Part shown: one piece after another, positions 1,722 to 24,843 of the stretch | Numbering within the stretch: position 1 is the stretch's first letter | Layout of the letters: each line of letters opens with the position of its first letter | Assembly: GCA_946537975.1 (NCBI GenBank) | Contig: CAMNGG010000239.1 | Span: 1-33,652, forward strand | Length of the DNA: 33,652 nt | Source of the DNA: an uncultured Treponema sp. | GTDB taxonomy: Bacteria > Spirochaetota > Spirochaetia > Treponematales > Treponemataceae | Reading direction: 5' to 3' | The notes under the pieces: model-generated | The model's database searches: none | Seen by the model: the letters and a program-made list of their open reading frames with translations, nothing else | What the model was told of the DNA's origin: nothing | Made by a program: the position numbers and the translations under genes

Positions 1722-1785
1722 CTGACCCCTCCCGTGAACGAATTTTAAAGAAATTTATACCAAATTTACATACTAAATTTAATTA

Positions 1786-1814
1786 AGTATAACATAGGAA
1801 GTAAAATAATGCAA
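1786..1814 (-). promoter_or_regulatory. Sigma-70-type promoter for fliF
   Basis: Read on the minus strand, TTGCAT (1814-1809) and TATACT (1791-1786) are separated by exactly 17 bp, and the -10 box is preceded by TG (extended -10, TGTTATACT). The transcript would start near 1779, leaving a leader of about 58 nt with the fliF ribosome binding site. The accessory operon between fliE and fliF would otherwise cut fliF off from the flgB promoter, so an own promoter makes sense. Confidence 0.6.
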
Positions 1815-1833
1815 ACGAAAAAATAATGAATGA

Positions 1834-1878
1834 TAGTTAGTTTTAATTAATGACTGTTAGTTAGTTATATGATAAAAT
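1834..1878 (+). promoter_or_regulatory. Candidate promoter and direct-repeat operator of the CARF/sigma/Abi operon
   Basis: The 9-mer TAGTTAGTT occurs twice (1834-1842 and 1858-1866), start-to-start distance 24 bp. A plausible promoter lies across the second copy: ATGACT (1850-1855), 17 bp, TAAAAT (1873-1878). One repeat would then sit upstream of the -35 box and one in the spacer, a layout typical of an operator for a dimeric or paired regulator. Which protein binds is unknown; the sigma-like protein of the same operon is one candidate. The region back to fliF is otherwise AT-rich and empty. Confidence 0.4.
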
Positions 1879-1916
1879 ATAGTAATTGATTTTTCCATAC
1901 GCGAGGATTTGTTTAT

Positions 1917-2555
1917 ATGAAAAAAATTGTATTCGCTGATATCTGTATGAGAGATGAACAGGCTTTTCACAAGGCCTGTTACAAAGGAAGTGGAAATGCA
2001 GGCAGCAATTACGCCGAAGAAGTATATTACCCTATCAACGCAATTCTTGCAGATAAACTGAAAAAAGACGATGACGTAAAGGTTGTTCTGGTTCAGACCA
2101 TCGATAAAGAAGATGAACGTGAGCAAAACAATGTTAAGGAAAATACTGAAAAATTCAAAGCCGAACTCAACCATATCAACGAATCAATCAATGCAAAAAT
2201 TGATTACAAAGAAGTCTGCGCAGACTATAATGAGCTCAAAGAAAATCATGAAAAGCGAATTATGACAATTCTCGAACAGATGGAAGAAGATGCTGAGCTT
2301 TACGGTGATATAACCTTTGGGCCGAGAACAGTCCCTATGGAAATGCTCTGTGCCTTTGCCTTTGCAGAACAGTTTTACAATGCTGATATCAAAAAGATTG
2401 TTTACGGTCAGGTAAAATGGGAAAACAACACACCCAAAGAGCCGCAGCTTTTTGACATTACTTCCCTGCACTATTTAAATTCCCTTACCTATAACATGCA
2501 GCCAGATACAAAAGAAGAAGCAATGAAAGCTCTTAAATTATTTTTCTCTCTTTAA
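1917..2555 (+). CDS. CARF-like sensor protein of the Cas_DxTHG / TM1812 type, stand-alone
   Basis: The 212-residue protein resembles the CARF domain of the Cas_DxTHG/TM1812 (Csx2-like) family, which binds cyclic oligoadenylate in type III CRISPR immunity. A hydrophobic strand VKVVLVQT leads into an N-terminal Rossmann-like part. The signature DxTHG appears as D131-I-T-F-G135, followed by P-R and a helix, then IKKIVYGQV and LFDITSLHYL, in the order seen in that family (D-x-T-H-G-F-R, then IxxIxYG, then xFDLTPL). The signature His is Phe here. No HEPN or nuclease domain follows, so it is a sensor or ring-nuclease-like module alone. It heads an operon with a sigma-like gene (18 bp downstream) and an Abi_2 gene. 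A GAGGA ribosome binding site precedes the ATG. The family call is from motif pattern only. Confidence 0.6.
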   Translation: MKKIVFADICMRDEQAFHKACYKGSGNAGSNYAEEVYYPINAILADKLKKDDDVKVVLVQTIDKEDEREQNNVKENTEKFKAELNHINESINAKIDYKEVCADYNELKENHEKRIMTILEQMEEDAELYGDITFGPRTVPMEMLCAFAFAEQFYNADIKKIVYGQVKWENNTPKEPQLFDITSLHYLNSLTYNMQPDTKEEAMKALKLFFSL

Positions 2556-2573
2556 TAATACCGGAAATTTCAC

Positions 2574-3311
2574 ATGGAACAAGAAGCTTTTTATGAAAAA
2601 ATCGACGAACTCTATAAGGAAATTGCAGATCAGCCGGAAGAAAACTCAAGCACTGGAAAAAAGGAACTGGCAGAGTTTCTTTTTGTAAATAATAAAAAAT
2701 GGGCTAAGTATCCTGTTCAGCTCCTTGAAACTCTTAATTACTGTCTTTCTCATTACGATAGCAGCAGAGGTGCTTTTTCAAACATGCTCACCTTTATGCT
2801 TCACCAGAAAATCGGGAATACAGAAACTGACGAAAAAAAAGATGAACAAAAACGCCGTTACAATGAAATTCCTATTGAAAAACAAAACTCCGATGGTGAC
2901 TACATATTTATTACAGACCAAGCACCTCCGACAGAACATCATTTAACTGATATTGAAAAACTATTAACAATAGACGATCTGCAGAATACCTTTGAAAAAA
3001 TTGACAAAACCCTGAAAGAGGAAGAAGAAAACCAAATGGCAAAATCTCTCCTGGCTACACGGGAAATTCTTTACATTCTAAAAAAACAGAGCTATGAATT
3101 ATTAAAGGATCCGCGGGTTTTTGAACTTGGCAAAGCCTTTGATTTTTCGAACAACCACATCTGGAATACTTTCTTCTATGATATAGATAATTTACCGACT
3201 AAGGAAGTTTTAGCCGCCTCGATGGGTATTAAGAAAAGCAATGCTTCAAAAATGATGACCCGCTTCTACGAAAGGCTAAAAGTTTCAGTTGATAAAATTA
3301 CAACCATGTAG
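2574..3311 (+). CDS. Sigma-factor-like DNA-binding protein
   Basis: The 245-residue protein has two features of sigma-70-family proteins. Near residues 60-75, YDSSRGAFSNMLTFML resembles the region-2 start seen in ECF-like sigma factors, where a D-P-x-x-G-x-F-x-x-(F/Y)-L pattern is common. The C-terminus (about 208-238) holds a helix-turn-helix of region-4 type: LPTKEVLAASMGIKKSNASK then MMTRFYERLK. The middle is charged and variable. It could equally be a non-sigma transcription factor with a sigma-4-like HTH. It lies between the CARF-like gene (18 bp) and the Abi gene (13 bp), so the three are probably co-transcribed. A CARF sensor beside a sigma-like factor recalls, without being homologous in parts, the CRISPR-Lon system that releases a sigma factor. 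Confidence 0.5.
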   Translation: MEQEAFYEKIDELYKEIADQPEENSSTGKKELAEFLFVNNKKWAKYPVQLLETLNYCLSHYDSSRGAFSNMLTFMLHQKIGNTETDEKKDEQKRRYNEIPIEKQNSDGDYIFITDQAPPTEHHLTDIEKLLTIDDLQNTFEKIDKTLKEEEENQMAKSLLATREILYILKKQSYELLKDPRVFELGKAFDFSNNHIWNTFFYDIDNLPTKEVLAASMGIKKSNASKMMTRFYERLKVSVDKITTM

Positions 3312-3324
3312 GATAATTACCAGC

Positions 3325-4284
3325 ATGTACAGTTTTCAGGATTTAGCCAACCATCTTAAAGATGTTCACAAGTTGCCTGTGGATCCGAACCAGATTCAGG
3401 ATTTAAGAAACATCGGTTATTACCACGGCTACAAGGGTTACCGCTTTATACGCAAAGCCGGAAATCTTATTAACTTTACAGCATTTGGACAGATTGTTGA
3501 TCTGAACAATTTTGACATGCAATTAAAAGGTTTATTCTACCCAAACCTTATGTTTATAGAAAACGCATTAAAAAGTTATGTTCTTGAAGCAACTCTTGCT
3601 GAATGCCAAAGTGAAAAACTCAATGACGTGTATAAAAAGGGGCTTACATATTATTCAGAATTTTCTGCAGGAACACCTCCGTATAAAAAAGAATTTAAGC
3701 GACGTATGGAACTTGAAATGAAAATTTCAAATGCCTTGATTCGTGACTATATGTCTGATAAAGCAATTGAAGTTCATTTTTACAATCAAGATAAAGAGAT
3801 TCCTATCTGGGCCGCTTTTGAAAGTCTTACACTTGGTGAGTTTGGAACTTTTTTTGCCTGCTCGAATAAAACTATCAGAAATAATGTTTCAACTTTATTA
3901 AACTTACCGACAAATCTTAACAGCGACAGCTTCCTGCTCAAAGAAATCATTTTTTCTCTTAAAGATTTACGTAATTCTATTGCACATAATGGAATTATCT
4001 TTGATACCCGTTTTGCAACGAGCAAAGTTCCAAACAGAATAAAAAGGCTTATAGAAAATGAGTTGAAAATAAATCAAATTGATTTTAATTATATTGTATC
4101 TTACATTGCATTGATTATTTTTCTTCTTAAACAGATGGGGGAAAACCGCAGGGCCAAAAGCTTTATCAACGAATACGTAAAGCTTCAGAACATGCTGAAA
4201 AGACTCCCCCCTAACACAAGCATTAAGATTTTTGGTTCTCAGGATGCAGCTGTTGTTGCTGCAATGCTTAAATATGTCTCTTGA
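3325..4284 (+). CDS. Abi_2-family abortive infection protein (HEPN-type RNase)
   Basis: The 319-residue protein has the Abi_2 (AbiD/AbiF) layout: an N-terminal part with the family-typical I-G-Y-Y-x-x-x-x-Y stretch (IGYYHGYKGYRFI), FYPNLMFIENALKSYV, a central IPIWAAFESLTLGEFGTFF, and a C-terminal R216-N-S-I-A-H221. The last is the R-x4-H catalytic motif of HEPN ribonucleases. Abi_2 proteins stop phage growth by growth arrest or cell death, probably through RNA cleavage. The reading frame extends to a TTG at 3289 that overlaps the previous gene; I choose the ATG at 3325 because AGGA precedes it and family homology begins there. It is the last gene of the CARF/sigma/Abi operon and is followed by a terminator. 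A CARF sensor upstream of a separate HEPN effector is notable. Confidence 0.8.
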   Translation: MYSFQDLANHLKDVHKLPVDPNQIQDLRNIGYYHGYKGYRFIRKAGNLINFTAFGQIVDLNNFDMQLKGLFYPNLMFIENALKSYVLEATLAECQSEKLNDVYKKGLTYYSEFSAGTPPYKKEFKRRMELEMKISNALIRDYMSDKAIEVHFYNQDKEIPIWAAFESLTLGEFGTFFACSNKTIRNNVSTLLNLPTNLNSDSFLLKEIIFSLKDLRNSIAHNGIIFDTRFATSKVPNRIKRLIENELKINQIDFNYIVSYIALIIFLLKQMGENRRAKSFINEYVKLQNMLKRLPPNTSIKIFGSQDAAVVAAMLKYVS

Positions 4285-4350
4285 TTTTTCAGGACTTTTA
4301 CAGTATATTAATAAATGAATTGAAGCAGGATTCCTTCGGGAGCCTGTTTG

Positions 4351-4386
4351 AGGGAGAGGATACGTTCGTCTCCCTTCATTTTTTTA
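4351..4386 (+). terminator. Rho-independent terminator after the Abi gene
   Basis: A 7-bp stem AGGGAGA/TCTCCCT (4351-4357 with 4369-4375) is followed within a few bases by a run of seven T. A second weaker hairpin with a TTCG loop (about 4322-4348) lies just before it. The T run overlaps the stop codon of the convergent radical SAM gene. Confidence 0.65.
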
Positions 4387-4953
4387 AAAGGGCCAGCCGT
4401 TACTTAAAATCTCTTTTTCTGAAATCAATATTTCCATTGAGTGTTCCTTTTTTTCATACTCAATGCCCTTTTTATATCTGTCAGATAAAAAAATAACCTT
4501 CTGATTTTTTGATCCAACCCAATCGCGTTCTGAATCTGGCTGAGTTTTATCATAGAGCCCGTCAATAAGAATATCTGTATTTGCAAGTAATTTTCTCACA
4601 GAAGGCTCTTGTGTTTTCAAAAGAGTTTCATATAAAAAACCGGTAAAAACCAGAACAGAAAGATTATTTTTTTTACACCACTCGGCAACAAGACTTAAAC
4701 CTTCCGCCTGCAACAAAGGCTCGCCTCCAATAAAAGAAACCCCTTCTATTTTAAAATCTCTTTTTGCCTTTTCGATTATCTGTATAAAATCAGAAACCTC
4801 TACAATATGAGCCTGAGAAAAAGTCTGCATTTTCTGATTGCAGCAGTCAGGACATCTTTGTTTACAGCCCTGCACCCACAAAGCAAAACGCTTTCCGGGT
4901 CCTTCAGATTCTGTACAAAGTCTGACTGCTGCCAGGTTTAAATACGTTGCCAT
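4384..4953 (-). CDS. NrdG-like radical SAM protein (4Fe-4S activating-enzyme type)
   Basis: The 189-residue protein is a short radical SAM enzyme of the anaerobic ribonucleotide-reductase-activase/4Fe-4S single-cluster type. The cluster ligands are C30-x3-C34-x2-C37 within WVQGCKQRCPDCCNQ; SFIGGEPLLQ (GGE at 76-78) is the SAM-binding motif. Such enzymes cleave SAM to a 5'-deoxyadenosyl radical, usually to make a glycyl radical in a partner. No glycyl-radical enzyme (nrdD-like) is present here. It is the last gene of a five-gene operon (9 bp after the AAA+ gene), so its substrate is more likely the ATPase, a neighbour protein or a nucleotide. Family assignment is firm; function in this operon is unknown. 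Confidence 0.85.
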   Translation of the reverse strand: MATYLNLAAVRLCTESEGPGKRFALWVQGCKQRCPDCCNQKMQTFSQAHIVEVSDFIQIIEKAKRDFKIEGVSFIGGEPLLQAEGLSLVAEWCKKNNLSVLVFTGFLYETLLKTQEPSVRKLLANTDILIDGLYDKTQPDSERDWVGSKNQKVIFLSDRYKKGIEYEKKEHSMEILISEKEILSNGWPF

Positions 4954-4962
4954 TATTTCAAA

Positions 4963-6792
4963 TTACACAAAATCAAAATCAAAAATTTGTCTAATAAGTG
5001 TGATTTTTATTCTTCGCCCTTCTACATTATCAGAACGCATAAAAATCCATTCAGCAAGCGGATTCACTATATAGGTTTCTATAGTGTTTAAAAGACCGCG
5101 ACCACCATTTGCTACTCCAGCTTTCTCTGCAATAAATTTAAACGCCTCATTCTCGTTTTCAAATTCAAGACTTGCCTTGTACTTCTCTTTTACGAAATTT
5201 TCGACAGCAATAAATTTTGCTTTTGCAATTTGAATAAATACATTCGAATCGCTGATAAAGTTGAACGCCACAATATTGTCGCCGATTCGGTTCAAGAGCT
5301 CCGGGCGTTTCAATTCTTTAACAAAATGCTCTTTTACCTTATTAACAAAAGTTTCACGAACCAGCTTCGCATCCATACCGCTCGGATTTACATCTGCTGC
5401 ACCTATATTTGAAGTAAAGATGATGATTGTTTCCGCAAAAGAAACTGTCTCACCTTTTCCGTCAGTAAGGCGGCCGTCTTCCAGAATCTGCAGGAATTTA
5501 TCCAGAATGCGGCCATGTGCCTTTTCTATTTCATCAAACAAAATTACACAGAAGGGCTTTTCTTTTACCGCATTCGTAAGCTGTCCGCCTGCCTCATAGC
5601 CTACGTATCCCGGAGGTGCACCAACGAGTCTCTGGTCGCTCTGCTCGTGGTTATACTCAGACATATCAAAGCGAATGCAGGCATTTTCATCACCAAAAAC
5701 AAATTCTGCCAGAGCCTTTGCAAGCTCAGTTTTACCGACACCAGTTGGACCTACAAAGAACAAGGTGCCCTTTGGCTTTTTCTGCTTTGCGGAATGCTGT
5801 AAACCAGAGAAACCTGTATAGGCACGGATAATTACTTCCTTTACCTTATCGATTGCCTGAGGCTGCCCCTTTACTCTGGCCGAAAGTCTATCTTCAATTT
5901 CCGCTAACTTTTCTTTTGAAAGCTCCTCCCATGGGCTAACCTTTTCTCCATATTTATAGAGATTAATCAGCTTTTCAAAAGTCATTGTTTCTGAATTCTG
6001 TCGGGAAAGCTTCATAAGCTGGGCAATTTCTTTCAGAGAAAAGCCGTCAAGCGCATCAAGTAAATCATCAAATATTTTTTTATCATCAATATTCTGAGAG
6101 ATTTTTAGACAGGTCTTGTTTTCTGAAAGAAAGCTTTCACGCTCACTTCTGGCCGGAAGTGGAATATTTACAGAGCTTACAAGGGGATTATTCAGATAAT
6201 AAGATGGAGGAATCATAGCATTATTTTTTGTAATAAGAACAACAATATTTCCTACCGCTTCAAAATTTGGAGAAAGTATATCATAAGACTGAGAATCCTT
6301 GAGAGTCTTCCCCAGAACTGTAAGATACTGACGTTCAGCATCTGAAAGAGAATTTGCGTTTCCAAAGATAAAATCTGAATAGTCAAGAATGAAAGCGGTT
6401 TTTCCACTGCCTCCGCTTATAGCCTGCAGCATATATGGAAAAAACTCTGCCGGATTTGTATAGGTGTTTGTATTTACCACATCTTCACCAGCAGACTCGT
6501 CCTCACCCAAATCGTAATCGTTGCCACCTGCCTGTTCAGAAGCTGCAGAATTCGTAATCTCAATCTTGTCAGAGAATTTAAGGTCTATTCCGCTCACTCT
6601 ATCCCATTTTACAACCTTCTCGTACCCCTTGCTTTTCAGATTTTTCATAACAATTTCTACAAGACTGTCATATTTTCCCTGATTCAAAGCATCAAAATAA
6701 ATATCATCTGTATTACCAAAAAGAATAATTGATGATTTAATTCCCGCATCCCGGTTAAACCTGTCGAGCCAGGCCATTTTACTTTCTGCCAT
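4963..6792 (-). CDS. ClpA/ClpB-type AAA+ ATPase with atypical N-terminal half
   Basis: The C-terminal half (about 290-609) is a Clp/Hsp100 D2-type AAA+ module with all catalytic parts: Walker A GPTGVGKT (348-355), Walker B VILFDE (416-421), aromatic pore loop GYVGYE (395-400), sensor 1 TSN (460-462), arginine finger R502 in RPELLNRI, and sensor 2 in GGRG (563-566), ending in the small D2 subdomain. The N-terminal half (1-280) replaces the normal N and D1 domains. It contains Walker-B-like TAFILDYSDF (132-141) and VVLITKN, suggesting a decayed AAA+ fold, with an acidic linker near 90-105. I see no ClpP-binding tripeptide loop, so it probably remodels rather than feeds a protease. The gene starts directly at the stop codon of the previous one (TAAATG). 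At 609 residues it is shorter than ClpB (about 860). Confidence 0.88.
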   Translation of the reverse strand: MAESKMAWLDRFNRDAGIKSSIILFGNTDDIYFDALNQGKYDSLVEIVMKNLKSKGYEKVVKWDRVSGIDLKFSDKIEITNSAASEQAGGNDYDLGEDESAGEDVVNTNTYTNPAEFFPYMLQAISGGSGKTAFILDYSDFIFGNANSLSDAERQYLTVLGKTLKDSQSYDILSPNFEAVGNIVVLITKNNAMIPPSYYLNNPLVSSVNIPLPARSERESFLSENKTCLKISQNIDDKKIFDDLLDALDGFSLKEIAQLMKLSRQNSETMTFEKLINLYKYGEKVSPWEELSKEKLAEIEDRLSARVKGQPQAIDKVKEVIIRAYTGFSGLQHSAKQKKPKGTLFFVGPTGVGKTELAKALAEFVFGDENACIRFDMSEYNHEQSDQRLVGAPPGYVGYEAGGQLTNAVKEKPFCVILFDEIEKAHGRILDKFLQILEDGRLTDGKGETVSFAETIIIFTSNIGAADVNPSGMDAKLVRETFVNKVKEHFVKELKRPELLNRIGDNIVAFNFISDSNVFIQIAKAKFIAVENFVKEKYKASLEFENENEAFKFIAEKAGVANGGRGLLNTIETYIVNPLAEWIFMRSDNVEGRRIKITLIRQIFDFDFV

Positions 6793-7920
6793 TTACATGT
6801 TCCCCCTTTTTGAATCGCTTGAAGCACTTTGTGTTCTTGAAAGACGGTCTGGATTTTCCCAGATTACCCGTTCATCAGAAAATTTTACGGAATAGATTTT
6901 TTCCAAATCTACATTAAATTTTTCAATTTCTTTAAGACAGGTCATACCCTCATAATTATCAAAACGATAATTCAGCTTTCCCTGAAGATTGATTTTACAG
7001 GTTGCTTGTTTGCCAGACGGCTTTTTTGCCTTTATAAGAACATAGGAATTATTTCCCTCTCCAAGAAGCTGAGGCTTTTCAACTGTAAATTCCTGAGACC
7101 TCAATTCCTTTATTATTGCCTTTACGGTTTCGCGACGAACCTCTTCATCTATAAGAGAATTGTCTACCTGAGCACGAAGAGCATTAATCTTTTCTGTTAT
7201 TTCTTCTACTGAATTTTCCATAGACAGATTTTCTTTCAGCTGTGACATTTCAATAAGGAGCTTTTCTTTATTTGCTTCGTTTTCAAATTTTTCATTCTCT
7301 ACAGATTTTATTGCATCATTAATCTGATTTGTCATAATTTCAAGCTTTGCTTTTTCAAGCTTTTGTTTTTTCCATTCTGCCGCTTTTTCTTCTGCAATTT
7401 CAGCTGCTTTTTCAATTTGCTTTATAAGCTCTGCTTCTGCAGTAATTTCTTCATTTTGTATTTTGGTTTTTATTTCTTCTAATTCCTTAAGTCCAAAATT
7501 TGCAAGAGCAGGATTTTTGATTTCACTTAAGCTAGAATAAAAAGCCTCTTCCAGCTTAGATTTTGCCTCGGCCTTTTTACGCTGTATTTCTTCATAACGG
7601 AGTCTTTCCTGACGGGCAAATTCTTCTTTAGCAGAACGTACAAGAAAAGCTATTGAATTTAACATACTTTCTGTTTCATAACATAAATCACGAGCCGTAA
7701 GGGGATCGCTTGTTATTATAGAAGAAATGTTCTTTATATTACGGGCAAGATTTTTCATTTCATCAGGAACATAGGAATCGAAAGCGTCATTTTTCATCTG
7801 TTCAAAACGAGCAGAAATTTCTTTTAACGCTTTCTCAGAATAATCGGCAGCTCTCTTATGTTCCAGTTCTTCCCTTCGTTTTCGTTCTAATTCATACCTT
7901 GCATCTAACTCGTGACTCAT
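6793..7920 (-). CDS. Coiled-coil protein with a conserved-looking C-terminal domain, unknown function
   Basis: I do not recognise the 375-residue protein. Residues 1-270 are highly charged (Lys/Glu/Ala-rich) and predicted to be mostly coiled coil. From about 275 to 365 there is a compact domain with the look of a real family: E-F-T-V-E-K-P, YVLIKAKKPSGKQA, YRFDNYEGMTCLKEI, a hydrophobic helix, and VIWENPDRLSR at the end. The gene overlaps its upstream neighbour by 4 bp (ATGA) and is followed with no gap by the AAA+ gene, so the three products are probably made in fixed ratio. A role as adaptor or substrate-binding rod for the AAA+ ring is my inference. Confidence 0.8.
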   Translation of the reverse strand: MSHELDARYELERKRREELEHKRAADYSEKALKEISARFEQMKNDAFDSYVPDEMKNLARNIKNISSIITSDPLTARDLCYETESMLNSIAFLVRSAKEEFARQERLRYEEIQRKKAEAKSKLEEAFYSSLSEIKNPALANFGLKELEEIKTKIQNEEITAEAELIKQIEKAAEIAEEKAAEWKKQKLEKAKLEIMTNQINDAIKSVENEKFENEANKEKLLIEMSQLKENLSMENSVEEITEKINALRAQVDNSLIDEEVRRETVKAIIKELRSQEFTVEKPQLLGEGNNSYVLIKAKKPSGKQATCKINLQGKLNYRFDNYEGMTCLKEIEKFNVDLEKIYSVKFSDERVIWENPDRLSRTQSASSDSKRGNM

Positions 7921-9986
7921 TTTTTTCCTCCGTTATTCATTTTTTTATTTGCATTCATTTTTGCTTCAAATACCTGATTGTATTTTTCAGATTCCTTTAT
8001 ACTTCCGTATATTTTTTCGAGATTGTGCAGATTACTTCTCCAGGAATTTATGAACTCATTCAGTTTTTTCTTATCTGTTTCTGTACTTATTTTGATACAG
8101 AGCTCATACAACTTAAAAACCCTTTCTTCAAAATCCCAATGTGCAGTCTTTATTTTTCCTGTAAAGACTTTTTCAAAATAATCATTTTTTGCCTTCTCAG
8201 AATAAAACTTTCCCCAGATCCCCTGCTTATTCAAATAACCATGAAAGCCTGGTGCTTTTTGTTTAACAAGGTCAATAAGAGCCCAGACATCTTCCAGCGA
8301 ATCTGTTGGCTGCAGACAAGGAATAACTGCTTTTAAGAGCTCTGTCAAAACCTGATTTTTTATAGCAGGGTTCTTTGTATATTCTTTTATAACTTTTATT
8401 GCAGAAGGAAAATCCTTTACAGTCTGCTTTATCTGATTTTTATCAATCAAGGAATCAGCAACAACTTCATTTGAAAGCAGTTTTTTTCCGGTCAACTTAA
8501 GATTTAACTGATTCAGTTCATTTAAAATTTTGTCTTTATCGCTTGCAGAATGGTCGGCAACAAGCTTATCTAAAAAGCCGTTAAATTCCTTTTTTAAGCC
8601 GTTCTCTTCATTTAACAAAAGCAGAACAGCAGGCTGACTTTTATAATACTGCTCAACTATTGAAAGAATACAGTCCCTTACATTCAATTCATTTTTCTTT
8701 GGAATATAGGAAAAGGTTATATCTCTTGAAACATCCCCAGCTCTTACAGGGAATTTTTCTGCTTTTATACAAAAAAGATTGTTTACATAAATACACGCAG
8801 AATGAATTACCGCTTCCGGTGCTGAAGGAATTGTAACAATAAGTCGACCGCTTTCTGCCTTTACCGCTAATTTATTCGCATTGAATACAATAACAGACTT
8901 CACGTCTTTGTTTTTATTTTTGCCATCCGAAATTTTCTGAAAAAAGTTTTCTTCATTGAAGAAAGAATTTTCAACTATAAAAGCTTTACAGTTATTATTA
9001 CCGGTAGCATAATTAATACGATACTGAACATTTTTTATGGAATGTTCAAAATTGCTTATCGTATCACTTGAAAACAACAATAACTCCTGGACCTGTGAAT
9101 CAGGCTTTGTAATTGAAGATACAGGACATACTTTCAGGCTTTCTGGAGGATTATTTTCAAAGTTTTTAAGACTTTCTTCCTCAAGTTCAACAGCTTTATT
9201 ACCTTCAAGCTTCCAGAGGAGTCCATCTTTTAACTGAACTTTATGCTTACTGTTTTCATAGCAGACATTGCGTTCACTTGGAAACACAGCACTAATCTGG
9301 GTATCTACTTTGAGCCAGTCAATTTTCTTTTGCTTAGCTTTCTTATTTTTCTTTTTATTATCCTCTGCCTGCGGCCAGTTTTTAGACAGCATTGCTTTTA
9401 CAAGTGGATCGTCTGCCAGGCTGTCTGTCTGTTTCTTTTTGTCCTGATTTTCAGTTTCCGGTTTTTGAGCTTCCAGATAATTTCGGATTTGTTTCTCTGG
9501 AAAATATTTTTCATTACCCTCTTCTTCAAGAGGTATATAATTACCTTTAGGCTCAGAAGTAAAATTATTTCTGTCGGTAATCAGCTTTTTATTTAAAGCA
9601 TCATATACTACATTCACTATATCTCTTTGCTCTTCTGCCGGCAAAAAGCCCTTCTGCTGCATTTCTTTTCCAAGCGGTAAAACTTTTACATCGCTAAGCT
9701 TAAGCTGGTTAAGAGTAGTATCATCTGTAAAGTCCTTACAGTTTACAGCACTTAAATCGTAAAGTGTTTTTAAAACAGGCATAATAAGTTTTTCAGGATT
9801 ATCAATCATAAAATATTTTTTGAAAAAATCCTCGAGGTTTTCATTCTGAAATTCACTTCCCTCGGCTTTTATAAGCGCTTCCAGAAAAAGCCATTCAAAA
9901 GCCGTAGACTTACGGGGAGTAAGATGCGAAACCATAACTTTATATTTCATATAAGGATGTGCTATTATTTCTTCACAAACTTCCAT
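7917..9986 (-). CDS. Large protein of unknown function in the helicase/AAA+ operon
   Basis: I do not recognise the 689-residue protein. The first 150 residues look helical and winged-helix-like, with LKLSDVKVLPLGKEMQQKGF and LP near 96-117 and repeated aliphatic helices. Residues about 180-230 are a Lys/Gln-rich linker (KKKNKKAKQKK). Residues 240-460 contain several beta strands (KSVIVFNAN, GRLIVTIPS, VIHSACIYV), and the C-terminal third is helical. There is no signal peptide, membrane helix or clear catalytic motif. It starts 12 bp after the helicase stop and overlaps the coiled-coil gene by 4 bp, so it is an integral part of the operon. It could be a scaffold or nucleic-acid-binding partner of the helicase. 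Confidence 0.8.
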   Translation of the reverse strand: MEVCEEIIAHPYMKYKVMVSHLTPRKSTAFEWLFLEALIKAEGSEFQNENLEDFFKKYFMIDNPEKLIMPVLKTLYDLSAVNCKDFTDDTTLNQLKLSDVKVLPLGKEMQQKGFLPAEEQRDIVNVVYDALNKKLITDRNNFTSEPKGNYIPLEEEGNEKYFPEKQIRNYLEAQKPETENQDKKKQTDSLADDPLVKAMLSKNWPQAEDNKKKNKKAKQKKIDWLKVDTQISAVFPSERNVCYENSKHKVQLKDGLLWKLEGNKAVELEEESLKNFENNPPESLKVCPVSSITKPDSQVQELLLFSSDTISNFEHSIKNVQYRINYATGNNNCKAFIVENSFFNEENFFQKISDGKNKNKDVKSVIVFNANKLAVKAESGRLIVTIPSAPEAVIHSACIYVNNLFCIKAEKFPVRAGDVSRDITFSYIPKKNELNVRDCILSIVEQYYKSQPAVLLLLNEENGLKKEFNGFLDKLVADHSASDKDKILNELNQLNLKLTGKKLLSNEVVADSLIDKNQIKQTVKDFPSAIKVIKEYTKNPAIKNQVLTELLKAVIPCLQPTDSLEDVWALIDLVKQKAPGFHGYLNKQGIWGKFYSEKAKNDYFEKVFTGKIKTAHWDFEERVFKLYELCIKISTETDKKKLNEFINSWRSNLHNLEKIYGSIKESEKYNQVFEAKMNANKKMNNGGKK

Positions 9987-9998
9987 CTTTAAACTCTC

Positions 9999-12900
9999 CT
10001 AACCTTTAGCTTCGTTATATTCTTTCAAAATATTTTTTTCAACTTCTGTAGAAATCAGTTTTGCAGAGCCTGCAAAGCAGCCATGACGTTTCAAGTCATC
10101 AATTATATTTGCATAAACAGGCAGCGTAAGTTCACCTTCCGAATCCATTTTTGGAATAGTAATTTTAAGATGATTGTAAGTATGCTCTGCCCCAACAATA
10201 AAAAGCAGATTTTGTGCACGCGAAAAAGCAACGTTAATTCGCTCATAAGTTACAACATGCTTTGAAGCATTACCTTGCTTATTATTACGGACAAGGCTCG
10301 TTATAATTATGTTCTTTTCCTTACCCTGAAAGCGGTCTACAGTATTTACATCAATATCAATAGCTTCAAAGGCATCCTTGAATTCTTTTGAATTACGGAT
10401 TTTTCTAACCTCGGCTCGAATTTCATTTACCTGGCGCTGATAGAAGCTGATTACTCCTACTGAAACCGCATCTTTTTTTCCAAGCCCCTGCTTTTTATAC
10501 TCTGCCGCAATCTTTTTCAAAAGCTCTATTATCAGATACTTTTCCATAATATTGCAGGCAGAGGTACTGTTCTGACGGAAAGTTTCATAAATTGGCTTTG
10601 GAGCATTTTTAGTGCTGCTAGGCAAAAACGATGAATCAAGCCAGTAAACGTGTTTTTTTGGCTGAATGAACGAAGAACCGTCAATTCCATCAATCTTGAG
10701 ATTATGGGCTTTTTCTTTATTTTCAACCTCGGGAGAATTACCGTTCTGCAGTCTGCCGTCATAAAAGCGATTAATAACATTCATAATATCAGAATGCATA
10801 CGGTACTGAGTCAAAAGCGAATGCTTTATCTTTTCATCAGCCTGTTCAAAGTAAGCCTTAAATAGAGAAGCAGTTACCATATTTTTAAACTTATTAAAAT
10901 TATCCTCGTTAAGAACCTGTCTTAAGTCTTCTTCCTCCTCGCTTAAATCATCAATCATCTCTTTGTAAGATTTTTCATGTTCTTCAAACATTGGAGGAAG
11001 CTGTCGGTGGTCTCCTACGAGTATTACCTTTCCAGCCTTCATAAGAGGAATAAGCAGTTCAGGAGGTGTAGCCTTACTTACCTCATCTATGATTACTACA
11101 TCAAAATTATCAAAGCCTTTATCCGAAAGATCTTTCATGTTGCTTGTACAGGAAACACCCACTACATTGCAGGAATTAATATAGGAGTCCAGAAAATACT
11201 CATTATCATACCGATAGGTATTTTCATCATCCAGCTTCTGGCAGAATTTCTGCATTGTTTCGCCAAAGCCAGTGCGTAAAAGCTTTGATTTATTCTGTTC
11301 AGATTCCAGCTGCTTTAAACGCAATTTTATTGCCTCTGACAGCTCTATACCATTTGCGGCTTCAGAAAGCTCATAGCGTGAACACAACTCGCGGATTTGA
11401 CTTGACTTAGACTTTCGCTGTCTGCCTTTATCTTTAAGCTCCTGCTTAAGAGTATTTATTTTTCCTTCCAGAGCATTCTTAGCTTCCACAAGAGACTTCA
11501 TTCCTTCTGACGAATTAGACTGTATTAATTGCTGCATTTTTTTCAGCGAGTCATTAACAGAGTCTTTCCATTGATTATAAACAGACTCAAGCAGGCGGCC
11601 TACTGAAGTCTTGTCGCTTTTGCATTTAGCCTGCAAATCTGCAGAAAAGGCTTTGCGAATCTCAGAGGATAATTCGATACCACCTGAGATTGAAATCTTA
11701 TCTCTTTTAAGCTTCAGACTATCCCATTCTTTTTTCTTTGTCTGGCTGAGTTCTTCATTTCCAGCGTCAACCGCTTCAAGATATTGCTTTTTTACAATTT
11801 CAATCTGTGCATTCAAGTTTTCGAATTCTGAATCTCCATTATTTGAACCGCTTGTTTTCTCTAAATTCTCAGAAAGCTTTTTAAACTCTAACATAACAAG
11901 ATGATTTGCTGAAATAAAATTGTCGGGTATAGTTATACCATTGCTTTGCGCAAAGTCCCTTATCGCTGAAAGCTCATTTCTTAGCACTGAAGAAAATTCA
12001 TCTGGAAGAACATCGTAGGGTTTTCCGTTATCAATAAAGGCCTTAAAGGCATCAAGCTTACGGCGAAGATTTTCCTTATCTGAATTAGCGGCTTCTATTT
12101 TCCTTAATTCTTCTATAGTTTTATTATATTTTGAGTTTTCTGTATCTATAGTTTTGTTAAGTTCTTCAATTTGAATTCCAAGCCCATCAAAATCTTTCTG
12201 CAACAAAGTTACATCGCGTAAATCCTTATTACATTGATTAATACTTTTATCAACGCCATTCCAGCCGTCAAGAAATTTTGAAGATATAGATTTTGAAAGC
12301 GATTGGTAATAATACTTTAAAGCGTCTTTTTCGATGTATTTACATTCCTGCTCTTCATCATTCTTCTTTTTCTTTTTGCCACCACGACCACCAAGTCGAA
12401 TTGCACGAATAGAAGGATTATTTGAAAGTCTGTCCAAAGCGTTATCAACCGCATCATTAGACTGAGAAGAAACAAGAACACGAAGTCCTTTACGGGCAAA
12501 CTGATAAATTATTTCAGCGATTACTGTAGTTTTACCGGTTCCAGGAGGTCCCTGCAGCAAAAACAGTTCTTCTGCATTTAAAGCTTTTTCTACAGCCTCT
12601 TTCTGATTTTGATTCTGAGCAATTTTTGGATTCGCCCATTCTGTTATTTCTGCGGCTTCTCTTGCAGGAATCGCTGCCTGTTTTACATCAAAAAGCCAGT
12701 TAATAAGAGTTTGAGAATAACAGTTACCCTCTTCAAGGTTGCTTATTGCCTGTTCAAATCTTCTTATAAGCGCAAAGTCACCAGCGGCAGAAAGTGCAAT
12801 AAATCCATTTTTTGGAATAGCAGAAATATAGTCTTCGATTTTTGTATCATTTTCTGTATCATCCGATTCATCTGCTGACTCCCCTTCCTGCTCCTCTGAG

Positions 12901-14048
12901 GGCTCCTCTTCTTTAGCTTCCTTTAATAATTCATCGGGAAGCTTATAGGAAGCATCGACTATAAAAGCATGCTGAAACTGCTCCTTTAATTCTTCTACTG
13001 AGAAAGTATTATCGCTGCTATTTATAATAGCATTATCTTCCTCTTTTGAAGATGGATGTTTATGAGCAAGCTCTGGATTTTCTTCTGCGCTGCCAGTCAG
13101 TTCCTCTTCGTACGAAAAACCTTGCAAAAAGCCCAAGCTGTTAGTGATATTGTCACCAAAAGATTTTTTACATTTTCTTACATACATCAGTTCTCTATCA
13201 TAATTAAACTTCCAGAAATCAAGCGAAATAAGATTATTAAAAATACAGGCATCGCGTTTTATATAGCGTTTCTCTTTTTCAAAGACTTCTTTTGATTCGA
13301 AGATTAAACTAAAAGTGATTGTCTTAGTTTCTTTGTTGTATTCGAAGTCAAAATATTTAGCACCATGAATCTGTTTATTTGTAATTTCCTTACGCCAATC
13401 CAGGTATTTCTTCCATTGTTCAAGATTATCCATTGCATTCTTACGAATAGATGGTAATGATGCAAGAAGAGTTGTAAAGTTTAAATCAGAAGGATTAGGA
13501 TTTGGAAGAAAAGACAGTTCACATTCGGCTTCAAAGTCCTTTTTTTCGGTTTCCTGTATTATTTGAATTGAATCTATTATGCTTATCCCTACTTCGCCTT
13601 CCTCTGTTATAAATCTGTGGCCAAGAAAAAGCAGGGTTTCATTTTCCTCAAGGTATTTGTCACAAAAGTCTCCTTCGCTTCGCACAGGACGAATTCCAAA
13701 CTGTATTTTGTCACTTGATGGAGAGAGATTTCGTATATAATACTTTTTTGATAAACCTGGTACAAAATTTTCTTTTATAATGGAATTAAGGAGAGGATTG
13801 ATTTCAGCATCAGAATTATCTGCTATTTCCTTTAACTTTGGACTATGAGCAAGCAAATTTCTTTCATTTTCTTTTCTATTTTTTAAACTTGGAATCCCCT
13901 TATTGAGCTGTATACAGACTTCTATTGATTTATTATTTTTTGAAGAAGTATTTTTTGGAGCCAAAGAATCCCACCACTCTTGTATAAAATCTGCAGCCTT
14001 GTCTATGGCATTTAAATCTATATCATTAAGTACATTATCTTTTTGCAT
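9999..14048 (-). CDS. UPF1/DNA2-like superfamily 1 helicase with long N-terminal extension
   Basis: The 1349-residue protein heads the five-gene operon. The SF1 helicase motifs are complete: Walker A GPPGTGKT (500-507), the Ia-like VLVSSQSNDAVDNAL, Walker B VVIIDEVSKA (D988), motif III VGDHRQLPP (about 1009), motif IV LTQYRMHS (about 1083), motif V VDRFQGKEK (about 1240) and motif VI INVAFSRAQ (about 1275). This is the AAA_11/AAA_12 pattern of UPF1/DNA2/SMUBP2-type enzymes. About 400 residues between motifs Ia and II are coiled-coil-rich, a large insertion. The N-terminal 480 residues are unrecognised, with a very acidic linker near 375-405. Such helicases act on DNA or RNA; which one cannot be told here. 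The ATG is only 5 nt from a TATAAT box, suggesting a leaderless mRNA. Confidence 0.92.
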   Translation of the reverse strand: MQKDNVLNDIDLNAIDKAADFIQEWWDSLAPKNTSSKNNKSIEVCIQLNKGIPSLKNRKENERNLLAHSPKLKEIADNSDAEINPLLNSIIKENFVPGLSKKYYIRNLSPSSDKIQFGIRPVRSEGDFCDKYLEENETLLFLGHRFITEEGEVGISIIDSIQIIQETEKKDFEAECELSFLPNPNPSDLNFTTLLASLPSIRKNAMDNLEQWKKYLDWRKEITNKQIHGAKYFDFEYNKETKTITFSLIFESKEVFEKEKRYIKRDACIFNNLISLDFWKFNYDRELMYVRKCKKSFGDNITNSLGFLQGFSYEEELTGSAEENPELAHKHPSSKEEDNAIINSSDNTFSVEELKEQFQHAFIVDASYKLPDELLKEAKEEEPSEEQEGESADESDDTENDTKIEDYISAIPKNGFIALSAAGDFALIRRFEQAISNLEEGNCYSQTLINWLFDVKQAAIPAREAAEITEWANPKIAQNQNQKEAVEKALNAEELFLLQGPPGTGKTTVIAEIIYQFARKGLRVLVSSQSNDAVDNALDRLSNNPSIRAIRLGGRGGKKKKKNDEEQECKYIEKDALKYYYQSLSKSISSKFLDGWNGVDKSINQCNKDLRDVTLLQKDFDGLGIQIEELNKTIDTENSKYNKTIEELRKIEAANSDKENLRRKLDAFKAFIDNGKPYDVLPDEFSSVLRNELSAIRDFAQSNGITIPDNFISANHLVMLEFKKLSENLEKTSGSNNGDSEFENLNAQIEIVKKQYLEAVDAGNEELSQTKKKEWDSLKLKRDKISISGGIELSSEIRKAFSADLQAKCKSDKTSVGRLLESVYNQWKDSVNDSLKKMQQLIQSNSSEGMKSLVEAKNALEGKINTLKQELKDKGRQRKSKSSQIRELCSRYELSEAANGIELSEAIKLRLKQLESEQNKSKLLRTGFGETMQKFCQKLDDENTYRYDNEYFLDSYINSCNVVGVSCTSNMKDLSDKGFDNFDVVIIDEVSKATPPELLIPLMKAGKVILVGDHRQLPPMFEEHEKSYKEMIDDLSEEEEDLRQVLNEDNFNKFKNMVTASLFKAYFEQADEKIKHSLLTQYRMHSDIMNVINRFYDGRLQNGNSPEVENKEKAHNLKIDGIDGSSFIQPKKHVYWLDSSFLPSSTKNAPKPIYETFRQNSTSACNIMEKYLIIELLKKIAAEYKKQGLGKKDAVSVGVISFYQRQVNEIRAEVRKIRNSKEFKDAFEAIDIDVNTVDRFQGKEKNIIITSLVRNNKQGNASKHVVTYERINVAFSRAQNLLFIVGAEHTYNHLKITIPKMDSEGELTLPVYANIIDDLKRHGCFAGSAKLISTEVEKNILKEYNEAKG

Positions 14049-22513: not shown

Positions 22514-23674
22514 TTATTTATTTCCCTTTGCAATATTATGTGGTCTGCAAAGCATCTGACAATTTGAAATATCCGTTGCACCACCTTTACTCCAGGCTGC
22601 TACATGATCGGCATCCATTTCTGTGAGTTTCCATATTTTTATTTTATTAGGAGTATCTGAAATAGCACAGAAAGGACAATTAGAAATACCCTTTTCTTCT
22701 GCTTCTTTAGTTTGTTTATCATAAACAATTCTTTTATCTCTATCTTCAAAAATTCTGATGTTTAAGAGCTTTGTATCGACACAACCACCTAAAACATATT
22801 CAAAAATACCACTTCGGTTTTTAACGGCACCATCTGCATAGAGTTCTTTTACCTTTTTGTCAATTTCATCCGGATTATAAGGCGTTGTATGATATTTTTC
22901 ATAAAGCTCTCCCCATTTTTGGCCACACATTTCTTTTTCAACAGTTTTGAAAACACTGGAAACCCAATCAATTACAGAAGTAAAATAATTTTTGAGTTCA
23001 GAAATATCTTCATTGTTTCTGTGTTCAGACATATATACTTCTTTATTATTTTTACTTACCCAATTTAAAGCACAGGAAAGAAAATCCTGTCTTTTTACAT
23101 CGCCTTTTATATATGCACTCCATTTTTGAATATTTGAATTCTGGCTGTTAGAAAATTCTTTTTTTGCGGCAGTGACAAACTTACCAGAATAAATTGCATT
23201 CAAAAGCTCCTGATCATTAAGCGGAACACCTGCGATATTTATTGTCTTAAACCATTCCTTAATTTCACTTTCAGTTCCTTCGCAGATGTAAATCAATAAT
23301 TTAGTATTAAGTATTTTTTCCTGCAAGTCTTCATCAAGTCCTGTAAAATAATTTTCCATTCCATTAACTTTTACAGCAAACTTACCAATTACATAACGAC
23401 CAAAACTCGTAATACGCTGTTGCCCATCTAAAACCTCGTAAGAATCTTTGCCAGTTTTTACAAAATAAAGAATACCAAGTGGATAACCTTTTATGATTGA
23501 ATCAATTACTGCAACATCTTTTACACCATCCGCATAAATATAATTACGCTGATATTCCGGCTGGATTGTCAGCTTACCAGATAAACCAAATAAACCTTTA
23601 CCTTCAAGTTCGTTATATGTAAAACCATTACAAATTTCTTTTATAGTGATTTCGGTTTTTAGAGTTGTTTGCAT
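22514..23674 (-). CDS. DUF262 (GmrSD N-like) protein with C-terminal HNH nuclease
   Basis: A 386-residue two-domain protein. The N-terminal DUF262/ParB-like domain has [10 protein letters not shown] (38-47) and [10 protein letters not shown] (81-90, the D-G-Q-Q-R signature), as in GmrSD-type type IV restriction enzymes, where it binds or hydrolyses NTP. The C-terminal HNH site is DADHVAAW (D-H at 356-357), [11 protein letters not shown] (N372, H380), with a zinc-type C-P-F-C upstream. It starts 2 bp after the methylase stop codon, and its ribosome binding site (AAAAGGAAAT) lies in the methylase 3' end. It is the likely nuclease partner of the methylase: either a restriction enzyme for unmethylated sites or a modification-dependent enzyme. 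Confidence 0.9.
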
Positions 23675-23676
23675 TT

Positions 23677-24843
23677 TTATTTCCTTTTTATCAAAATTCT
23701 CTGATAAACTTTTTCTAAATGCCCGTCACCTACTAGAAGAACTCCACTTGCATTTAAATCATAAGTTCCTTTTTTTCCAAATTTTGTAAAATATGCGTCT
23801 TTACATTCGCTTGTTGTATACAACTTTGTTTTTAAACCATATAAATCTTCATTTTCACACATTCCAACAATTTCAAATTGTTCAGGACAATATTTATCAA
23901 GAAAGGAAATGGGAACCCCCATAATTCCATTAAAATCAGATGGTATTGAATCAACAAAAGGAATTTCTATGGCATTATAATTATCATAATGACTATATCC
24001 ATAATTCTTTACTTCTTTATGTCTACTGAATTTTATATTATCTGCTTCTGTCATTAAGACTAAAGGTTGATGTCTACGCCCATGCTCAATGTTTGTGTAC
24101 CATCTGACACCATTTACACGCCAATATAATTTTCCGTCTTTAATATAAGCATTTTTTTCATTTGACATTTTTTTGGGGTCATACAATTTTGCACTTCCTA
24201 CAAAATAGGCTGCGCCACCATTAAAATAACTTGAACCAAGCCATATTTCATTATTTTTAATCTTTGGAAATACCTCTTTATATGTAATTGCATTAAGATT
24301 TCCAATTATTATAAATTTTTTATTCTTTTCTAAAATCCAGGCCAAAAATTCCTTGAATAAGCTAAATGGTGGATTAGTAATAATTATATCCGATTCATCT
24401 CTAAGCTTTCTAACTTCTTGACTTCTAAAATCACCATCACCATCTAAGTAATTCCATTTCAAATCATCAACATTGATTTTACCATCACCATTTTCATCTT
24501 TTTCAAGTATAAATATTTTTCCATTTGTTCTTGTTTTAGAATTATCAAAAAGTGGACTTTCAGTTTCAAATAACGATGGTTGGTAATCTTTGTAATATTT
24601 GCTTTCTACAGCATAACTTGTACTGATTAATTTCTTCAATCCAAATCTATTGAAATTCTGAGCAAAATATTTTGTAAAATTAGACCATTCCGGATCATCA
24701 CAAGGAAGAAGAATCGTTTTATTCTTAAAAACTTCTGGATTATAATCCAAATAAGCATTCATTTCTTTTTCGATGTCAACATATTGTGTATAAAACTCAT
24801 CGTTTTTTGTTGATTTTGCAGAATATAATTTATCATTAGCCAT
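23677..24843 (-). CDS. EcoRI-family adenine-specific DNA methyltransferase
   Basis: A 388-residue N6-adenine methylase of the EcoRI methylase family. It shows NDEFYT near the N-terminus, the long loop [13 protein letters not shown], the family-typical DGDGDFRS, the catalytic motif IV as NPPF (157-160) in [12 protein letters not shown], and later [10 protein letters not shown]. An insertion at 116-127 ([12 protein letters not shown]) is a perfect EF-hand-type calcium loop pattern (D-x-N-x-D-G-x-I-x3-D). Such enzymes protect host DNA from a partner nuclease, here probably the DUF262-HNH protein just downstream. Transcribed divergently from an XRE controller gene. Confidence 0.9.

Follow-up and report, generated by a model that had tools for sequence, protein, structure and literature searches.

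Organization of the five-gene operon

Analysis of the window, i.e. the whole 33,652-bp stretch that forms contig 239 in the draft genome (3.6 Mb) of an uncultured Treponema sp., revealed an operon that is real, widespread and mobile and whose function is most likely defensive. The minus strand carries five genes, those for a helicase, a 689-aa protein, a 375-aa protein, an AAA+ ATPase and a radical SAM protein in that order (genes 1 to 5; Table 1), head to tail with intact ORFs and gaps of 12, -4, 0 and 9 bp, just as the initial annotation had described them. We consider it quite probable that they form a mobile system directed against viruses (or plasmids), of the kind that combines a UPF1-like helicase with a winged-helix effector, to which genes 3-5 would add a control arm; the role in defence is suggested by relatives of the genes and by their neighbourhood. 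The motifs of the helicase (GPPGTGKT at residue 500, DEVSKA at 988, GDHRQLPP at 1012, QYRMH at 1081 and VDRFQG at 1237), those of the D2 domain of gene 4 (GPTGVGKT at 348, LFDEIEKAH at 418, TSN at 460, NRIG at 499 and GGRG at 563) and the cysteines C30, C34 and C37 of gene 5 were all intact. Scans for promoters and terminators gave results no better than those with shuffles.

Table 1. Features of the operon and of the adjoining cassette in the window
Feature	Position	Strand	Basis
Gene 1, UPF1-like SF1 helicase of CnuH/MkoA type, 1349 aa	9999..14048	-	Pfam AAA_11/AAA_12, PADLOC MkoA
Gene 2, CnuE/MkoB type, 689 aa, without the PIN nuclease of relatives	7917..9986	-	family profile, fold
Gene 3, coiled-coil protein, 375 aa, C-terminal alpha-beta domain at 259-343	6793..7920	-	67-sequence alignment, AlphaFold
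Gene 4, AAA+ protein, 609 aa, degenerate first AAA half, ClpB-like second AAA	4963..6792	-	Pfam AAA_2
Gene 5, NrdG/PflA-like radical SAM protein, 189 aa, CX3CX2CC	4384..4953	-	Fer4_12, NrdG and PflA profiles
Abi_2/AbiD gene of HEPN RNase type, convergent with gene 5 at a distance of 99 bp	3289..4284	+	Pfam, PADLOC
245-aa gene flanked by CARF and Abi_2, with a C-terminus that looks HTH-like by eye	2574..3311	+	kept in 3/4 loci
Stand-alone CARF-domain protein	1917..2555	+	PADLOC; kept in 3/4 loci
Shared eight-gene cassette, full extent	1741..13925	.	tblastx of window vs L063, L067, L068

Recurrence and distribution of the operon

Profiles built from each family located all five families together at 58 loci, the window included, and 57 of these 58 complete loci were collinear on one strand; a genome-wide scan gave 78 loci. 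Inter-locus distances correlated at 0.905-0.975 for each pair of the five families, and this correlated divergence indicates that the genes are inherited as a unit. The initial annotation had read the close spacing as a sign of one functional unit and had suggested family profiles as a check; collinearity and correlated divergence agree with a single unit, and the families co-occur instead of lying scattered singly in relatives. With the N-terminal half of the AAA+ protein as tblastn query, the identically ordered set of five was recovered from plasmids of Polaromonas, Moellerella, Photobacterium, Acinetobacter and Leisingera. According to database records, the carriers belong to at least seven phyla (Pseudomonadota, Actinomycetota, Bacillota, Spirochaetota, Synergistota, Fibrobacterota and, with a rearranged operon, Planctomycetota), and one Lentisphaerae record may be misbinned.

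Gene 3 is sparse in Spirochaetota (7 of 393 genomes), and relatives of gene 2 were present in 1 of the 35 other members of the window's genus that were searched. No match to the AAA+ N-terminus was found in a phage collection, and two scans of virus contigs yielded one real homologue (L030). At the DNA level, 5426 complete E. coli genomes contained no copy of the operon, the matches listed being clp genes. The operon of Helicobacter suis (L066:2406-11841) is decaying, with the helicase in four pieces and the AAA+ gene in two.

The helicase and its winged-helix partner

The window helicase matched the PADLOC MkoA model at 3e-112 (8e-102 for the helicase of locus L023), and PDB matches of the family profile were SMUBP2, DNA2 and UPF1. 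Walker A is separated from Walker B by about 480 aa (median of 496 in 57 homologues). A tree of 63 helicases united the 57 from five-gene loci in one clade with a support of 0.91, beside which were placed helicases of two-gene pairs with a wHTH-PLD or wHTH-DarT partner. Gene 2, initially listed as unknown, is no orphan: it belongs to a family of helicase partners, which as a rule carry a PIN nuclease at the C-terminal end. Its product is predicted to have an N-terminal MarR-like winged helix, a beta-rich middle and C-terminal helices (AlphaFold pLDDT 89), the wHTH being recognized by fold in the predicted structure (Z 7.7 over 76 residues); Foldseek searches with genes 2 and 3 returned nothing below 0.001. 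PADLOC MkoB matched 16 of 48 members of the gene 2 family, the best at 3e-11, and the window protein failed to reach 0.01. Because a two-sequence MkoB profile matched the N-terminus of gene 2 weakly (probability 20%, E 0.001), the kinship between gene 2 and MkoB rests on the PADLOC MkoB matches and on those of L124 and L126. Across the phylum, the MkoB profile scored mainly via its low-specificity C-terminal part; it was left out of the prevalence figures.

Pairs of this kind have been described: CnuH is a UPF1-like helicase containing a large helical insertion, the CnuE protein that follows it joins an elongated winged helix to one of various effectors, and Bell et al. (2024) argue that CnuH/CnuE target RNA, which is read as defence (PMC11090510). 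Judging from sequence, the helicase and gene 2 are a branch of this already known CnuH/CnuE, MkoA/MkoB-like pair, one that lies outside Mokosh proper and the CoCoNuTs because PLD and McrB/McrC, respectively, are absent. The novelty claimed for the operon in the initial annotation consequently does not extend to this pair, and it stands for the full set of five, for which no named match or description was found in the system libraries and literature searched (subscription papers and preprints lay largely outside). We also found no description of the putative control arm, genes 3-5, in that literature.

CoCoNuT types II and III likewise have an SF1 helicase of UPF1 type in which Walker A is followed by a large insertion, and coiled-coil partners and an AAA+ motor within the operon. 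Their downstream winged-helix protein with a swappable nuclease is resembled in part by gene 2, in which the wHTH is seen by fold and a nuclease is present in 56 of 66 relatives but absent from the window protein. They differ from the five-gene operon in that 1) McrB/McrC (CnuB/CnuC) are absent from the window operon and from its Pfam and PADLOC hits, 2) the motor of the five-gene operon is of Clp type and a radical SAM protein is added, and 3) the five-gene effector is usually PIN, a word that does not occur in the main text of PMC11090510. With Mokosh type I, the operon shares the MkoA-family helicase, and the resemblance of gene 2 to MkoB extends to the 16 of 48 members mentioned above. Mokosh type I was reportedly described by Millman et al. 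in 2022 as consisting of MkoA and MkoB. Its domains are given in PMC10952713. The five-gene operon differs by having PIN, HEPN or no nuclease on gene 2 instead of PLD, by three additional genes, and by the absence of a kinase domain among the Pfam hits of the window helicase; MkoB of L110, L111 and L127 had PLD-type motifs or annotation. Mokosh-like pairs on cyanobacterial plasmids (L124 and L126 with PLD, L125 with DarT in a BREX cluster) form a sister clade whose second gene is also a wHTH-effector, but they lack genes 3-5. On the Nostoc plasmid among them (L125:8140-14888), the helicase and winged-helix-DarT genes are accompanied by an ADP-ribosylglycohydrolase gene within the BREX cluster. 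The same two enzyme families are paired as UPF1 and SMG6 in eukaryotic nonsense-mediated decay, a domain analogy with no sign of common descent as a pair.

Effector variation and the treponemal cassette

A C-terminal PIN_4 domain was present in 56 of the 66 gene 2 proteins, its best PDB match being SMG6/EST1A (E 2e-13). The virus-derived contig L030 has a HEPN-type RNSLIH motif (seen by eye) in place of PIN at the C-terminus of gene 2, and in two synergistete loci and one planctomycete locus PIN is missing and no evident substitute was seen. Gene 2 of the window and of three treponemal relatives has no nuclease domain either. In all four of these PIN-less treponemal loci, an Abi_2 gene (Pfam 9e-28, PADLOC AbiD 3e-26) adjoins the operon at the radical SAM end, with one intervening gene in L067, and the RNxIAH motif of Abi_2 is kept in the four homologues. 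A complete genome from that treponemal family has the operon in its PIN form, without Abi_2. It is most likely, from these sequence comparisons, that the window lineage lost PIN and that the adjacent Abi_2 HEPN protein is the replacement nuclease; since the four PIN-less loci are one lineage, the swap counts as one evolutionary event. A gene with a start similar to the HD part of Cas10/Csm1 (seen by eye; L138:1-2177) lies near the PIN-bearing operon of the complete genome.

Ahead of Abi_2, three of the four PIN-less loci carry the 245-aa gene, for which no Pfam, PADLOC or PDB match was found, and a CARF gene (PADLOC CARF2 3e-71, Csx1 7e-37). The similarity of the four treponemal loci in tblastx was limited to 1741-13925 of the window; flanks were unrelated and insertion sites differed. 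Because the similarity ends at 1741 and 13925 and the flanks are unrelated, the eight genes appear to move together. The five-gene unit initially proposed is retained, and in the window lineage the conserved unit also takes in 1917-4284 on the other strand. The CARF/245-aa/Abi_2 trio in this plus-strand segment is kept in L067 and L068, with no evident cyclic-nucleotide synthase adjoining.

The AAA+ ring, the radical SAM protein and gene 3

Gene 4 matched Pfam AAA_2 at 2e-51 over residues 339-503. Its N-terminal half, noted earlier as atypical, had Walker A in none of 74 homologues, and the two working ATPase domains that are a feature of ClpB/ClpA were not found; a profile of this half weakly matched the AAA domains of paraplegin/VCP. 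The ClpP-docking tripeptide was looked for in gene 4 and was absent, on which ground a role as ClpP partner was rejected. Catalytic folds and motifs are shared with the second AAA domain of ClpB/ClpA and with the NrdG/PflA activases, but gene 4 differs from ClpB/ClpA by its dead first AAA half and the lack of a ClpP loop, and gene 5 differs from NrdG/PflA by its CX3CX2CC signature and by carriers that mostly have no glycyl-radical partner.

Gene 5 matched Pfam Fer4_12 at 2e-32, and its family profile matched PflA at 1e-17; CX3CX2C was present in 75 of 75 sequences, with the extra Cys in 95%. The best NCBIfam model was NrdG (1e-28), with a score of 100.1 bits where the cut-off is 126.1. This match, together with NrdD genes directly adjoining the operon in two unrelated carriers (L082/L004/G016 and L070:12544-14683, the latter with its own NrdG), could be explained if gene 5 activated a glycyl-radical enzyme, e.g. 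class III ribonucleotide reductase, with nucleotide pools changing during infection. Such a role as activase is exceedingly improbable and was rejected: the NrdG cut-off was missed, NrdD and a Gly_radical protein were both absent from 15 of 20 carrier genomes (the window's own genome has NrdD on another contig), and no operon protein had a glycyl-radical motif near its C-terminus. Because those 15 carriers lack such an enzyme, the substrate of gene 5 is expected to be something other than a glycyl-radical enzyme, and a protein target is more likely than a nucleotide signal. The radical-dependent nucleotide signal put forward in the initial annotation found no support, since the viperin-family hits were weak and generic and the NrdG/PflA models fitted far better; a viperin-like role was rejected, the curated viperin model giving 19.9 bits vs 180. 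Extra radical SAM genes were seen close to the operon at L026:14709-16691, with a small ATPase, and at L025:1431-3499.

The pair of AAA+ and radical SAM genes was also found without gene 3, in FHA/PP2C/kinase operons; gene 3 therefore cannot be the sole substrate of the pair, which looks, by its gene contexts, like a reusable module. This second operon type (L028, L094 and L098) consists of an FHA or zinc-ribbon protein, a radical SAM protein, the same AAA+ family, a PP2C phosphatase and a protein kinase, to which the operon of L028, a rumen Aristaeella plasmid, adds a DUF4011 helicase. Given the occurrence of AAA+ and radical SAM genes in other operons and the two-gene relatives without genes 3-5, one might regard genes 3-5 as a passenger module downstream of a Mokosh-like pair, dispensable for its function. 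However, the collinearity in 57 loci, the near-zero gaps and the correlated divergence of all five genes make this very unlikely.

Gene 3 is predicted to consist of long helices and a C-terminal alpha-beta domain (AlphaFold pLDDT 82). In the 67-sequence alignment, ten residues were invariant, among them Y323, G325, C328, Y343, W354, N356 and P357. The nearest fold to the C-terminal domain was the spermine synthase N-terminal domain (Z 9.9, 2.4-2.5 A, 88-90 residues), and KA1 domains were also similar (Z 8.6), both being matches of fold only.

Proposed mode of action

For the defence system favoured here, we infer RNA as the target, the formation of a complex and a target for the radical SAM protein, as follows. 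The helicase would travel on foreign RNA or single-stranded nucleic acid, with its long insertion holding gene 2 by the winged-helix part. Upon engagement of the target, the nuclease would be released and RNA would be cut. This nuclease would be the PIN domain fused to gene 2 for most bacteria, a domain of HEPN type for the one virus-derived contig and, most likely, the separate Abi_2 protein for the window lineage. Genes 3-5 would act as the control arm, in which the AAA+ ring may remodel the complex by means of its single functional ATPase tier, with the coiled-coil gene 3 as its adaptor, and the radical SAM enzyme may modify a protein partner, thereby setting or resetting the switch; the best candidate is the invariant Tyr-x-Gly-x-x-Cys region of gene 3. 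More tentatively, and with rather low confidence, the Clp-like ring might feed the radical SAM protein, so that the invariant Cys/Gly/Tyr domain of gene 3 receives a covalent mark by which the helicase-nuclease is armed or disarmed.

A unit kept from Acinetobacter plasmids to rumen treponemes extends the class of UPF1-like helicase/wHTH-nuclease systems and brings into it a Clp-type unfoldase and an NrdG-like radical SAM protein. As gene 5 is cut off from the reaction of its closest families, its substrate becomes a testable question, and the apparent exchange of PIN for a stand-alone HEPN protein, which occurred naturally in treponemes, opens the effector role of gene 2 to direct testing. If true, the marking of gene 3 would be an immune switch by radical protein chemistry that operates in bacteria lacking glycyl-radical enzymes altogether, and the radical switch module would also be plugged into FHA/kinase/phosphatase operons.

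Genomic neighbourhood

Plasmid copies of the operon adjoin integrases, ArdA and restriction genes. BREX, DISARM, Cas6, CARF, CARF-HEPN and AbiD genes, integrases and transposases flank other copies, making up several of 142 flanking ORFs, a tally that covers carrier loci alone. The flanks in the window contain CARF, AbiD, an EcoRI-type methylase, a GmrSD/HNH nuclease and a PIN toxin. The defence-type setting suggested in the initial annotation is in line with the plasmids and with the adjoining BREX, DISARM, CRISPR and Abi genes, and a confinement to core metabolic loci, which it had named as contrary evidence, was not observed. Some copies do lie among housekeeping genes (for example, L083 adjoins genes of tryptophan synthesis and L078 precedes genes for ribosomal proteins); this counts against defence, yet mobile systems also sit in such places.

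These core-gene loci would suit a role in stress or RNA quality control, in which the UPF1-like helicase and an SMG6-like nuclease would clear damaged or stalled RNA, the Clp-like ring would clear attached proteins and the radical SAM protein would be a sensor of oxidative stress. The closest eukaryotic parts are indeed UPF1-family helicases and SMG6, and a Clp-type ring with a 4Fe-4S protein suits stress responses. However, the very patchy spread (7/393), the plasmid carriage, the insertion sites that differ in close relatives and the neighbouring defence genes are all unlike a housekeeping stress system; we regard this role as unlikely and defence as the better reading. At 22514-24843 on the minus strand of the window, the EcoRI-type adenine methylase gene is followed by that of the GmrSD/HNH-type nuclease, likely a restriction-modification pair, in a low-GC patch of 27-33%.
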